From Gemmatimonas phototrophica (GTDB lineage Bacteria > Gemmatimonadota > Gemmatimonadetes > Gemmatimonadales > Gemmatimonadaceae): a stretch of 64,000 nt of DNA. The translations under genes were made by a program, and so were the position numbers. The stretch is taken from the NCBI GenBank assembly GCA_945869195.1, contig CAMBNV010000001.1, positions 372,001 through 436,000 on the forward strand. Reading direction: 5' to 3'. The notes under the pieces were generated by a model. It searched no databases. It was not told where the DNA came from and saw only the letters and a program-made list of their open reading frames with translations. Below, one piece after another: positions 19,480 to 37,506 of this stretch. Numbering within the stretch: position 1 is the stretch's first letter; every line of letters begins with the position of its first letter.

Positions 19480-20505
19480 TCAGCGTGGAAGGCGTGGATA
19501 CAGGGACACGCACTTCTCCAACCGCGCACCGCGATCGTCACAGACCGCGAACTGCGCACCGTCATATAGCGTCCCCGCCGCATAGCGTCCGTCCTTGGCC
19601 AGCGCATAGAACTGAATGTCGAAGTTGGGACGTCCATCGGGGCGGAGCAGGCGGGGCTCGGTCATGGCCACGAGCCGCTCGAGCGTCTTGAGCACCGCCA
19701 CCTCCGGCGCGAGACCTTGCCGCATGAACTCCACGGTCAGAAAGGCACCACAAACCTTGATGTTCGCCTCGCCGCGCCCGGTCGACCCCGCCGCGCCCAC
19801 GGTGTTGTCGCAGTACTGCCCCGCGCCGATGACCGGCGAATCCCCAATGCGTCCCGGGATCTTCCAGGCCATCCCGCTCGTGGTCGTCACCGAGCTGATG
19901 TCGCCGCGCGCATCGACGGCGTTCATGTTGATCGTGCCGGTCGTGAACTTGATTGCCACATCATCGTTGTGATCGAGCCAGGCGTCGTCCTTGTTCAGGC
20001 GGGCCTTCCAGCGGAGCCAGTCCTGCCGGGTCTTCTCGGTGAGGAGATTCTGCTCCTTAAAACCCATAGCGAGTGCGAAGCGTTTGGCGCCCTCTCCCAC
20101 GAGCATGATGTGATCGGTGTAGTCCATGACGGCCTTTGCCACTAAACTCGGCGTCGCGATGCCTTCAATGGCGCCGACCGAGCCGGCGCGCTTGGACGGG
20201 CCGTGCATGCAGCTCGCGTCGAGCTGCACGACGCCCTCGGCATTGGGCAGACCGCCAAGCCCGACGCTCTGATCCTCGGCGTCGAGTTCCTGGATATTCA
20301 CGCCGGAGATGATGGCGTCGAGACAGTCGGCGCCGCCGACAATCCGGTCATATGCGACTTTGACTCCGCGGAGACCGTTGGCACTCGCCAGCACGACCGG
20401 GCGGGTAAGCGGGGGGGCGAGCGCGACTGGCGCGTGGTGGCGCTGCGCGCTGGAGAGGGCGGCGGCCGCAACGGTGGATGCGAGGAAGTCTCTGCGAGTG
20501 GGCAT
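19480..20505 (-). CDS. Exported glycosylasparaginase (Ntn hydrolase)
   Basis: A 341-residue N4-(beta-N-acetylglucosaminyl)-L-asparaginase-like protein. The Ntn nucleophile should be Thr191 in TGTINM, after autocleavage of the preceding Gly-Thr bond; most homologs have Asp-Thr at this place, so the -1 residue differs. The conserved TTTSGMAWKIPGRIGDSP and GAAGSTGRGE segments form the substrate pocket. The N-terminus MPTRRDFLASTVAAAAL has an Arg-Arg pair and suggests Tat export of the folded proenzyme. The family removes Asn from glycan stubs and some isoaspartyl links. The ATG for MPTRRDF is preferred over a longer frame of poor quality. Confidence 0.88.
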   Translation of the reverse strand: MPTRRDFLASTVAAAALSSAQRHHAPVALAPPLTRPVVLASANGLRGVKVAYDRIVGGADCLDAIISGVNIQELDAEDQSVGLGGLPNAEGVVQLDASCMHGPSKRAGSVGAIEGIATPSLVAKAVMDYTDHIMLVGEGAKRFALAMGFKEQNLLTEKTRQDWLRWKARLNKDDAWLDHNDDVAIKFTTGTINMNAVDARGDISSVTTTSGMAWKIPGRIGDSPVIGAGQYCDNTVGAAGSTGRGEANIKVCGAFLTVEFMRQGLAPEVAVLKTLERLVAMTEPRLLRPDGRPNFDIQFYALAKDGRYAAGTLYDGAQFAVCDDRGARLEKCVSLYPRLPR

Positions 20506-20614: not shown

Positions 20615-22471
20615 ATGACAACGACAGATCTGCACCACATCCCATTCTTTCACGGCATCGGCGATCAGCAGCTCTGGCACCTCAGCCGAGCCGGCGAGGC
20701 CGTCACATACGCTCCGAACGACGCGCTCTTCGATACCGGCGCGCCGCGATTGGCTTTCTGGGTGGTGCTCGAAGGCAACGTCGCCATCGAGTCAGTCGAA
20801 TCTGGCATCCCGCATCGCCTCTCCACACTGGGCGCCGGCGACGTGCTCGGTGAGAGCATCCTCCTCGACGAGGACGTACATAGCAGCACTGCGCGCGCCA
20901 CCGTCCCTGTTCGCGCGCTGCGCTTCTCCAAGGAGGCCCTTGAGCCGCTGCTCAAGGACAAGCCTCAGCTCTACGCCGCCCTCGTCTCGCGCTCTGCGCG
21001 CGCCATCCGCGACCGACTTCGTCAGGCGGATGCGAGCCTCACCGGCCAGGGCCGCCTCCTGGGCTACAGCACGACCGGTGTGACCCGCCGAGAGCACGAC
21101 CTCCTCGGCGAGCGCGACGTCCCCGACGCCGCCCTCTACGGCGTCCAGACCCTTCGCGCGATCGAGAACTTTCCGATCACCGGGGTCACGTTGCGTGATT
21201 TTCCGGAACTCATCGTGGCGCTCGCACAGGTCAAGGAGGCTGCCGCCCGCGCCAACCAGGGGCGCTCCGACCTCCCCGACAACGTGTACGACGCGATGGT
21301 GCAGGCCTGCCAGGAGATCCAAGCCGGCCGCCATCACGAGCACTTCCGTGTTGACATGATCCAGGGCGGCGCCGGCACCTCGAGCAACATGAATGCGAAC
21401 GAGGTGATTGCGAACCGCGCCCTCGAACTGTTGGGCGAGGTCCGCGGGACCTACACGCGCGTGCACCCCAACGAGCACGTCAACCTGTCGCAGAGCACCA
21501 ACGACGTCTACCCGACCGCCATCCGCATTGCGTTGCATACCGCGATCGGCGGCCTGCAGGCGCAGATGCGTCTCCTCGTGGAAGCATTCCTCGCGAAGGG
21601 GACAGAGTTCGCCCAGCACATCAAGATGGGACGGACCCAGCTGCAGGACGCGGTGCCGATGACCCTCGGCCAAGAGTTCAACGCCTACGGGCACACCATC
21701 GCCGAAGACGTCGATCGCCTGGACGAAGCGAAGGCGCTCATGCGCGAGATGAATATGGGCGCGACCGCCATCGGCACCGGGATTACCGCGTGGCGGGGCT
21801 ACACCGAGCGCGTCCAGGCGGAGCTGAGCAAGGTGACCGGCCTCACGATGATCACCGCCCCCGACCTCGTTGAGGCGACGAGTGACACCGGTGCGTTCGT
21901 GCAGGTGTCCGGCGTCCTCAAGCGCTGCGCCGTCAAGCTGTCGAAAATCTGTAACGATCTACGGCTCCTCTCGAGCGGCCCGCGCACCGGGTTGGGCGAG
22001 ATTCGCCTCCCGGCGATGCAGCCTGGCTCGAGCATCATGCCCGGCAAGGTGAACCCGGTAATCCCCGAAGCGGTAAATCAGGTCTGCTTCGACGTCATCG
22101 GCGGCGACATCACCGTAACGATGGCCGCCGAGGCGGGCCAACTGCAGCTCAACGTCTTCGAGCCGATTATCGCTTTCCGCCTCCTGAGCAACATCAGGGC
22201 ACTCCGGAACGCCTGCCAGATCCTGCGGGAGAAGTGCATCGTCGGCATCGAGGCAAATCCCAAGGTGATGCGCGACGCGGTCGAGCGGTCGATCGGGCTC
22301 GTGACGGCCCTCCTCCCAGAACTGGGCTACGAAGTCTGCTCACAGGTCGCGAAAGAAGCATTGGAGAGTGGGCGCGGCGTGGTCGAGCTCCTGCTCGAGA
22401 AGCAGCTCCTCACGCGGCAGCAGATCGACGAGATTCTCGATCCGGCGCGGATGACTGGGACTCGGGGGTAA
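20615..22471 (+). CDS. aspA: Aspartate ammonia-lyase fused to a cNMP-binding-like domain
   Basis: 618 residues in two domains. Residues 1 to about 140 form a cyclic-nucleotide-binding (CRP-type) jelly roll, with GAGDVLGESILLDEDV as the phosphate-binding cassette. Residues from about 160 (EHDLLGERDVPDAALYGVQT) to the end match aspartase closely, including QGGAGTSSNMNANEV, KMGRTQLQDAVPMTLGQEF and the lyase signature GSSIMPGKVNP. The enzyme converts L-aspartate to fumarate and ammonia. The cassette arginine that binds the cyclic phosphate in CRP is Ser90 here, so ligand binding is doubtful or altered. Stand-alone aspartases are about 470 residues. The start lies 109 bp from the divergent glycosylasparaginase. 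Confidence 0.93.
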   Translation: MTTTDLHHIPFFHGIGDQQLWHLSRAGEAVTYAPNDALFDTGAPRLAFWVVLEGNVAIESVESGIPHRLSTLGAGDVLGESILLDEDVHSSTARATVPVRALRFSKEALEPLLKDKPQLYAALVSRSARAIRDRLRQADASLTGQGRLLGYSTTGVTRREHDLLGERDVPDAALYGVQTLRAIENFPITGVTLRDFPELIVALAQVKEAAARANQGRSDLPDNVYDAMVQACQEIQAGRHHEHFRVDMIQGGAGTSSNMNANEVIANRALELLGEVRGTYTRVHPNEHVNLSQSTNDVYPTAIRIALHTAIGGLQAQMRLLVEAFLAKGTEFAQHIKMGRTQLQDAVPMTLGQEFNAYGHTIAEDVDRLDEAKALMREMNMGATAIGTGITAWRGYTERVQAELSKVTGLTMITAPDLVEATSDTGAFVQVSGVLKRCAVKLSKICNDLRLLSSGPRTGLGEIRLPAMQPGSSIMPGKVNPVIPEAVNQVCFDVIGGDITVTMAAEAGQLQLNVFEPIIAFRLLSNIRALRNACQILREKCIVGIEANPKVMRDAVERSIGLVTALLPELGYEVCSQVAKEALESGRGVVELLLEKQLLTRQQIDEILDPARMTGTRG

Positions 22472-22473
22472 CG

Positions 22474-22851
22474 ATGGCCGGAGTGAAACTCGACGGCGCA
22501 GGCACGCAGAAGCTTAAGACGATCGAGGAAGCCCTGCTCACGCTGCAGAAAATCCACGGCCTCGTTGAACGGATGGCGCTCGAGCTGAAAAACCAGCGCC
22601 CCGTCGGCGTGCTGCCATCACAGATCAAGCGGACCGCGACGCCGCTGCAGGGCCAGCTCAAGGGCCAGTTTGGGATGATTGCCGACCAGATGTCGGCCAT
22701 GATCCTCGCCACGGGGCGCTCCGGTGGCGACGCGCTCAAGGTGCGCGCGCTTCGGGAGTACGTCGGGCAGGTCCGCACCGCGCTCGAGATGGCGGCGAGT
22801 AAAGTGAAGGAGAAGCACGCCGTCGCGATCGAGACCTCACCCGGCGACTGA
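22474..22851 (+). CDS. Small helical hypothetical protein downstream of aspA
   Basis: A 125-residue protein starting 2 nt after the aspA stop, with a GGGGG run just before the ATG. It predicts as almost entirely alpha-helical, with two amphipathic blocks (TIEEALLTLQKIHGLVERMA and LREYVGQVRTALEMAASKV). It has no membrane segment, signal peptide or known motif. Tight spacing implies co-transcription and possibly co-function with the aspartase fusion, for instance as a small partner. That is only positional evidence. Confidence 0.75.
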   Translation: MAGVKLDGAGTQKLKTIEEALLTLQKIHGLVERMALELKNQRPVGVLPSQIKRTATPLQGQLKGQFGMIADQMSAMILATGRSGGDALKVRALREYVGQVRTALEMAASKVKEKHAVAIETSPGD

Positions 22852-36294: not shown

Positions 36295-37506
36295 TCAGCG
36301 CGTGCCCTTCATCCGGACGATCAGAATACTGCCGGTCAGTTCGTCGTCTCGCGCAAAGAGCAGCTCGCCGTTCGGCAGCATCGCGAGCGGCAACCCCATG
36401 CCGGTGGTCGAGCCGACGTAGACGCCCTCGGAGTTGAAGACGTCGACGACCGCCGGCTTGAGCTCGGCCGGGGTTCGCAGCGCCCAGCTCGTGCCGTCGG
36501 GCAGCAGCACGACGGCGAACACCAAGGGATACGTGGGCGCCAGACCCTGCGTCGCCCCGACCTCCTCGACGGGGATCGTACAGTCTGGCTGCCCTCCGCC
36601 CAACGCGAACTTCATGCCGTTCGGGTACAGGGCGCGCACGTCGGCTTCACTGGGCGCACGTGGGGTGAGCGGTCGCCGAATGCTCGCGAGCGCGCGCGGA
36701 CCCTCGTAGAGCCAGAGTTCGTACACCGGCTGCACATTCACCAGCAGACGCGCGTCGCTAGCATGCATCGGCAGTTGCGGCGCGAATATCGGAGGCAGAC
36801 CCGCGACCTTGGTGCAACTGGAAGCCAGTGCATCGCTCAGCTGGTCGCGCACACTCTTGAGCGGCGCGCCGCCCAAGGTATCGGCGAACACCGACGACAC
36901 GCGGATCGAATCGCTGACGTCCCTCTGCCGGAACCAGAGGCCACCGGTACGGAAGAAGAGCAGGTCCGCACTCGCGAGCGCACCCTCCAGCCGCCGGTCG
37001 GACGTCGGTGTAAGATCAGGGAGGAAACGCACGAGTGCCTGCTTGGCTGCGTCGTTCACAAAGATCGTGTCCCCCTGGGAGCCGATGCTCAGGGGAAGCT
37101 CGAACTCACCTGGCCCGCTCCCTCTCTGCCCAATCGTCCGATCGAACCGCCCCGCACGATCGAATCGTACGATCGACGGCTCGCGCGTCACGACGTATGT
37201 GCGGCCCGCGCGGTCGGCGAGGACGCGCGAGGGCACCACGTCCGTGAAGCGCCACGGCTCCCCGAGTGAGTCGCGAAAAACGTCAATCTCCTTGAAGGTC
37301 CACGGCAGCACCGTGTCCCGCGCCCCCGACGTGATCAGCCGCACGCCCGCCGAATCAGTGCGCACGACATCCGTCGCGGCCGTCGAGTTGCCACGACAGG
37401 CGACCGCAAACACGAGAGCGACCCCGACCGCTGACCAGATCATGCTCAGTTTCCACACGGCCTGGCGCTGTCCGCGCGCCCCTCGGTAACTCTTCAACTT
37501 TTTCAC
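36295..37506 (-). CDS. 6-bladed beta-propeller lipoprotein
   Basis: 403 residues. A lipobox (VFAVAC) follows a hydrophobic segment, so it should be membrane-anchored outside the cytoplasm. RTYVVTREPSIVRFDRAGRFDRTIGQRGSGPGEF is a classic NHL/6-bladed propeller blade, and similar strands recur to the end (VDVFNSEGVYVGSTTGMG). Such lipoproteins are numerous in Gemmatimonadota and Bacteroidota; their ligands are unknown. The frame begins at GTG 37506, but an internal GTG at 37458 gives a more normal lipoprotein signal peptide. It follows directly on a truncated propeller gene. Confidence 0.75.
   Translation of the reverse strand: MKKLKSYRGARGQRQAVWKLSMIWSAVGVALVFAVACRGNSTAATDVVRTDSAGVRLITSGARDTVLPWTFKEIDVFRDSLGEPWRFTDVVPSRVLADRAGRTYVVTREPSIVRFDRAGRFDRTIGQRGSGPGEFELPLSIGSQGDTIFVNDAAKQALVRFLPDLTPTSDRRLEGALASADLLFFRTGGLWFRQRDVSDSIRVSSVFADTLGGAPLKSVRDQLSDALASSCTKVAGLPPIFAPQLPMHASDARLLVNVQPVYELWLYEGPRALASIRRPLTPRAPSEADVRALYPNGMKFALGGGQPDCTIPVEEVGATQGLAPTYPLVFAVVLLPDGTSWALRTPAELKPAVVDVFNSEGVYVGSTTGMGLPLAMLPNGELLFARDDELTGSILIVRMKGTR

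Follow-up and report, generated by a model that had tools for sequence, protein, structure and literature searches.

An aspartase fused to a CNB-fold domain with a conserved, non-canonical pocket in the Gemmatimonadota

The window analysed here, a 64,000-nucleotide stretch of a Gemmatimonas phototrophica assembly (contig CAMBNV010000001.1), encodes an aspartase with an N-terminal CNB-fold domain (CNBD), flanked by a divergent Asparaginase_2 family gene and a gene for a small helical protein (Table 1). The fusion had previously been placed at positions 20615-22851; this start is correct, whereas the end is that of the small downstream gene, as the fusion stops at 22471.

Table 1. Genes and features at the fusion locus, in window positions.
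Feature	Position	Strand	Evidence
CNBD-aspartase fusion gene, 618 aa, ATG to TAA	20615..22471	+	ORF list, sequence, Pfam, NCBIfam, full-length conservation in relatives
CNBD, residues 6-142: beta roll, cassette helix 80-83, C-helix 117-142	20630..21040	+	Pfam PF00027, PDB matches, AF2 model
Arg45 codon CGA, facing the PKA Gly169 position	20747..20749	+	2pqq alignment; invariant, n = 96
Phosphate-binding-cassette equivalent, residues 79-93, GESILLDEDVHSSTA	20849..20893	+	Sequence, PDB-match alignment, family alignments
Glu80 codon; His89 codon	20852-20854; 20879-20881 (within cassette)	+	
Linker, residues 141-157	21035..21085	+	AF2 model, confidence low at 141-154
Aspartase domain, residues 158-615; motifs TSSN, QSTND, GRTQ, GSSIMPGKVNP	21086..22459	+	Pfam, NCBIfam, structure matches, alignment
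Small four-helix protein gene, 125 aa, starting 2 nt past the fusion stop	22474..22851	+	AF2, distribution
Asparaginase_2 family (Ntn hydrolase) gene, divergent, Tat-like leader	19480..20505	-	Pfam; conserved beside aspA in f1

Profile searches confirmed the claim of the earlier note that residues 1-140 form a CRP-type domain joined to a complete aspartase. Pfam cNMP_binding (PF00027) matches residues 30-114 (E 3e-13, 49.9 bits vs. a cut-off of 27.5) within a CNBD of about residues 6-142, and the lyase at 158-615 is covered by Lyase_1 (165-496, E 6e-92) and FumaraseC_C (562-615), both above the curated cut-offs. The AF2 model of the fusion (mean pLDDT 84, input alignment of 35 sequences) runs from the CNB beta roll through the cassette helix and a long C-helix to the linker and the lyase. 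This profile match, together with the modelled beta roll, cassette helix, and C-helix, places the N-terminal domain in the CNB-fold superfamily (PF00027).

The fusion protein exceeds the threshold of the NCBIfam aspartate ammonia-lyase subfamily NF008909 (718.6 vs. 510 bits) and narrowly misses the equivalog TIGR00839 (659.1 vs. 681.2 bits), so that it is assigned as an aspartase at the subfamily level only. A class II fumarase was rejected, with TIGR00979 giving 460.6 bits against a cut-off of 664.75. The catalytic motifs TSxN, QSTND, GRTQ, and GSSIMPxKVNP are all intact, the domain is 53% identical to E. coli AspA, and solved aspartases, PDB 3oce and 6wng among them, come out closest in both sequence and fold comparisons, with the VIA-align fold comparison of the full model spanning the lyase part only. 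The only FumC/AspA-type C-terminal domain in the window genome is that of the fusion itself. Judged by these features, the lyase half would be an ordinary aspartase, yielding fumarate and ammonia from L-aspartate. Some members of the window's family have, in addition to the fused gene, another aspartase-like gene that is unfused (54-56% identical; G036:C50, G030:C3, G321:C57, G103:C89).

Among 108 genomes of the window's family (f1) with a completeness of at least 90%, 76 encode the fusion, 13 encode a CNBD-less orthologue, and 19 lack a close aspartase. A search for the same domain order elsewhere, as the earlier note had proposed, also recovered it from three further families of the class (f4, f5, and f6), giving 96 distinct CNBD-plus-lyase frames from four families, and full-length relatives at 53-85% identity occur in many independent genomes, some of them single-contig (G011, G070, G105). 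A scan of named genomes, whose search pattern was the cassette of the window's own family, returned 55 relatives, of which 52 are labelled as Gemmatimonadota or one of its members and two simply as bacteria. The last is a Gemmatimonadota-like CNBD-aspartase, cut at the contig end, on a MAG contig labelled Candidatus Kuenenia (L158, CALQGY020000192.1), which is probably misbinned. The CNBD-plus-lyase order was not seen among the plasmid matches listed. A single clade of all fused sequences was not rejected (AU p 0.267); a clade of f1, f4, and f6 was weakly supported (74/85), and the branching of f5 was not resolved in the same tree.

The CNBD departs from canonical domains in its pocket. In ungapped HMMER alignments to 2pqq (GELSLFDPGPRTATG) and PKG (GEKALQGEDVRTANV), His89 faces the canonical phosphate-binding Arg, which is missing from all 96 CNBD-aspartases, and His89 is invariant in its place. 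Arg45, also invariant in 96/96, aligns to the glycine in the 2pqq PGD loop, a residue that we equate with Gly169 of PKA. Glu80, the cassette Glu for ribose, is kept in every sequence and Gly54 is likewise invariant; these four residues (R45, G54, E80, H89) are among only 11 invariant CNBD positions in a 21-sequence alignment with a mean identity of 50%. Compared with a canonical cAMP- or cGMP-binding CNBD, the domain thus has the ribose Glu and lacks the expected residue at both the Arg209 and the Gly169 place. The Arg corresponding to CRP Arg82, described earlier as lost, is indeed absent under either alignment, but its replacement is His89 and not Ser90: the shift by one stems from a gapless pairing with the E. 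coli CRP cassette, whose stretch from Glu72 to Arg82 has an extra residue.

Kannan et al. 2007 (PMC2246266) describe Gly169 and Arg209 as co-conserved in canonical CNB domains, with Gly169 contacting the guanidinium of Arg209. In the aspartase family this pair is doubly replaced, by Arg45 and His89. Gly and Arg are both present in the CRP of the window genome and in several further CNBDs of these genomes; others have neither. To judge from these patterns, the pocket looks rebuilt rather than decayed, and the anion site may have been rebuilt with its positive charge shifted to the beta2-beta3 loop.

Omega values within the genus are 0.17-0.44 in the CNBD, as against 0.07-0.14 in the lyase. The CNBD is thus under purifying selection, constrained yet evolving at two to six times the rate of the lyase. 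This constraint and the invariant R45, E80, and H89 lend plausibility to the earlier suggestion that the domain may be regulatory or sense another ligand. The genera g5, g7, and g37 carry an orthologous aspartase without the CNBD at the same locus, in the order leuS, asparaginase (in most), aspA, coxBAC. These CNBD-less aspartases group together as a single clade that branches within the fused sequences of the family (99/95), so that the domain was, most simply, lost once, in this clade; the smaller tree used for the AU test leaves the nesting unsupported either way. In three small genomes of the window's genus (G001, G012, G013; 1.8-2.3 Mb), no close aspA match was found, and two of them (G001, G012) still have the asparaginase gene at the locus, along with the small gene and the cox genes.

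The order leuS, divergent Asparaginase_2 gene, CNBD-aspA, small gene, coxB-coxA-coxC is widespread in f1. The proximity to respiratory genes pointed out earlier is thus a syntenic feature of this family, but it does not extend to the other fused families, as the leuS-to-cox block is not kept around the fusion in f4-f6. The 125-residue protein had been proposed as a partner of the aspartase. Its AF2 model has four confident helices (pLDDT 91) and His28 is invariant; it matches no Pfam family, and the fold search gave only weak hits to four-helix bundles (best E 0.066), including Hpt/CheA-P1-like ones. The gene is conserved beside coxB in f1, and other families of the class contain distant relatives. 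At least 14 f1 genomes that lack a fused aspA contain it, and it adjoins coxB without aspA in G001, G012, G033, and G035 (loci L110, L112, L113, L118); the listed g36 genomes, which have the fusion, gave no match to it. Based on this distribution we rejected it as a partner and regard it as linked to cox, outside the aspartase system. The Asparaginase_2 protein may possibly serve as an exported source of aspartate, and asparaginase-aspartase gene pairs are also found in Rhizobium and Streptomyces. Its Tat-like leader was read by eye, and its KIPGRIGDSPVIGAG motif recalls glycosylasparaginase.

The reading we lean towards is that of an aspartase tuned by a ligand bound in a remodelled CNB pocket. 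The N-terminal domain would ride on the enzyme via a flexible linker, and its pocket, with Glu80 kept and Arg45/His89 in place of Gly169/Arg209, would bind a small, probably anionic or nucleotide-like ligand. The C-helix and linker would then pass the signal on and tune the activity of a presumed aspartase tetramer. This proposal draws on the architecture, the invariant R45, G54, E80, and H89, the selection on the CNBD, and the intact catalytic motifs, and on two precedents, namely trypanosome PKA with its nucleoside ligands (PMC10959531) and CooA with its haem-ligating His (PMC2246266). Against it we count that a whole clade keeps the aspartase without the CNBD, that the CNBD evolves faster than the lyase and, by analogy, that family 2B encapsulins contain a comparable fold to which cyclic nucleotides were shown not to bind (PMC12407261).

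A special case of this reading is that the domain is still a cAMP or cGMP sensor, in which Arg45 would replace the cassette Arg and the second messenger would switch the aspartase directly. The window genome encodes a canonical CRP as well as a class III cyclase, and Glu80 is retained. In f1, a class III cyclase is present in 71/76 fused genomes vs. 2/13 CNBD-less ones, and an orthologue of the window-genome CRP (59-71% identical) was found in 7/7 sampled fused f1 genomes vs. 0/13 sampled g5, g7, and g37 genomes, where the only matches were at 31-34%, in g37. This co-loss of CNBD, cyclase, and CRP is in keeping with, and hints at, a tie to cyclic nucleotides, but all genera without the CNBD belong to a single clade and represent one evolutionary event only. 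Moreover, the cyclase is kept in 17/19 genomes that lack aspA altogether, no class III cyclase was detected in G064, G074, G264, and G224, which are fused and 93-99% complete, and the Arg209 and Gly169 equivalents are both replaced, which together make a direct cAMP or cGMP sensor doubtful. A related proposal is a shade more probable and still tentative: a cyclic nucleotide or a nucleoside relative, held at the swapped Arg45/His89 anion site, would gate the flux from aspartate to fumarate, with sensor, cyclase, and CRP lost together in the one clade. CYTH matches were weak and indistinguishable from triphosphatases. The cyclase of the window genome (L204, 587-2518; contig C1 near 36972-37490) has N-terminal FHA-like and GAF-like parts; it is conserved in the genus and mostly absent from the clade without the aspartase CNBD.

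Alternatively, the CNBD could be free of any ligand and serve oligomerisation, stability, or protein docking. The long C-helix of the AF2 model is typical of CNBD dimers, the domain is dispensable in one clade, and the family 2B encapsulins offer a precedent (PMC12407261). Yet the invariant residues include the pocket residues Arg45, Glu80, and His89, for which a simple dimer interface would have no use, and we consider this explanation rather unlikely. Misassembly or an annotation artefact has next to no probability: nothing was found in its favour, and the same fusion stands as one open frame in many independent assemblies, single-contig ones included; the fusion is real.

We found no paper on the combination of aspartase and CNBD or on the invariant R45/H89 pair, in a search of literature mostly outside the subscription journals, and the word "lyase" is absent from Kannan et al. 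2007 (PMC2246266). The domain order may already be listed, uncommented, in protein databases. Both parts are known singly, and CNBD-enzyme fusions are known too (Pat); the fusion is probably a ligand-controlled enzyme without earlier description. If true, CNB-type covalent control of a textbook aspartase would newly connect small-molecule signalling with the carbon and nitrogen flow of amino acids. The invariant Arg45/His89 pair would be a sharp, testable example of a CNB pocket re-engineered without decay, for which the g5, g7, and g37 orthologues, having lost the sensor domain alone, provide a natural control.

Compared with known systems, the fusion shares its whole enzyme domain and catalytic motifs with E. 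coli AspA and Bacillus YM55-1 AspB (PDB 3oce, 6wng), neither of which has an N-terminal CNBD. Mycobacterial Pat, a CNBD-acetyltransferase (PDB 4onu) with weak matches to the fusion, also has the CNBD N-terminal to an enzyme; it is regulated by cAMP and keeps canonical cAMP binding, and its enzyme is not an aspartase. CRP/PKG-type CNBDs (PF00027; 2pqq, PKG) have the same fold, cassette layout, and ribose Glu, but in the fusion Arg209 is replaced by His89 and Gly169 by Arg45, and the DNA-binding or kinase domain is missing. Proteins of about 1100 aa in family f3 of the same order (L206, L207, L209 in G044, G046, G040) are another unusual fusion, combining a nucleotide-transporter-like membrane part and HEAT-like repeats with a canonical CNBD that keeps both Gly and Arg. 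The CNBD of family 2B encapsulins (NF041163; match to the fusion with E 4.6e-9) has similarly divergent binding-site residues, but it is inserted in a capsid-like shell protein and not an enzyme; it was shown to bind no cyclic nucleotide and is not known to bind any other ligand (PMC12407261). The trypanosomatid PKA regulatory subunit and CooA have output domains unrelated to aspartase, and the available text of their sources reports no Gly169-to-Arg change. Still, they resemble the fusion in that the cassette Arg is replaced and a new ligand is bound: nucleosides in place of cAMP in trypanosome PKA (PMC10959531), and haem in CooA, ligated by a His at the Arg209 place (PMC2246266).
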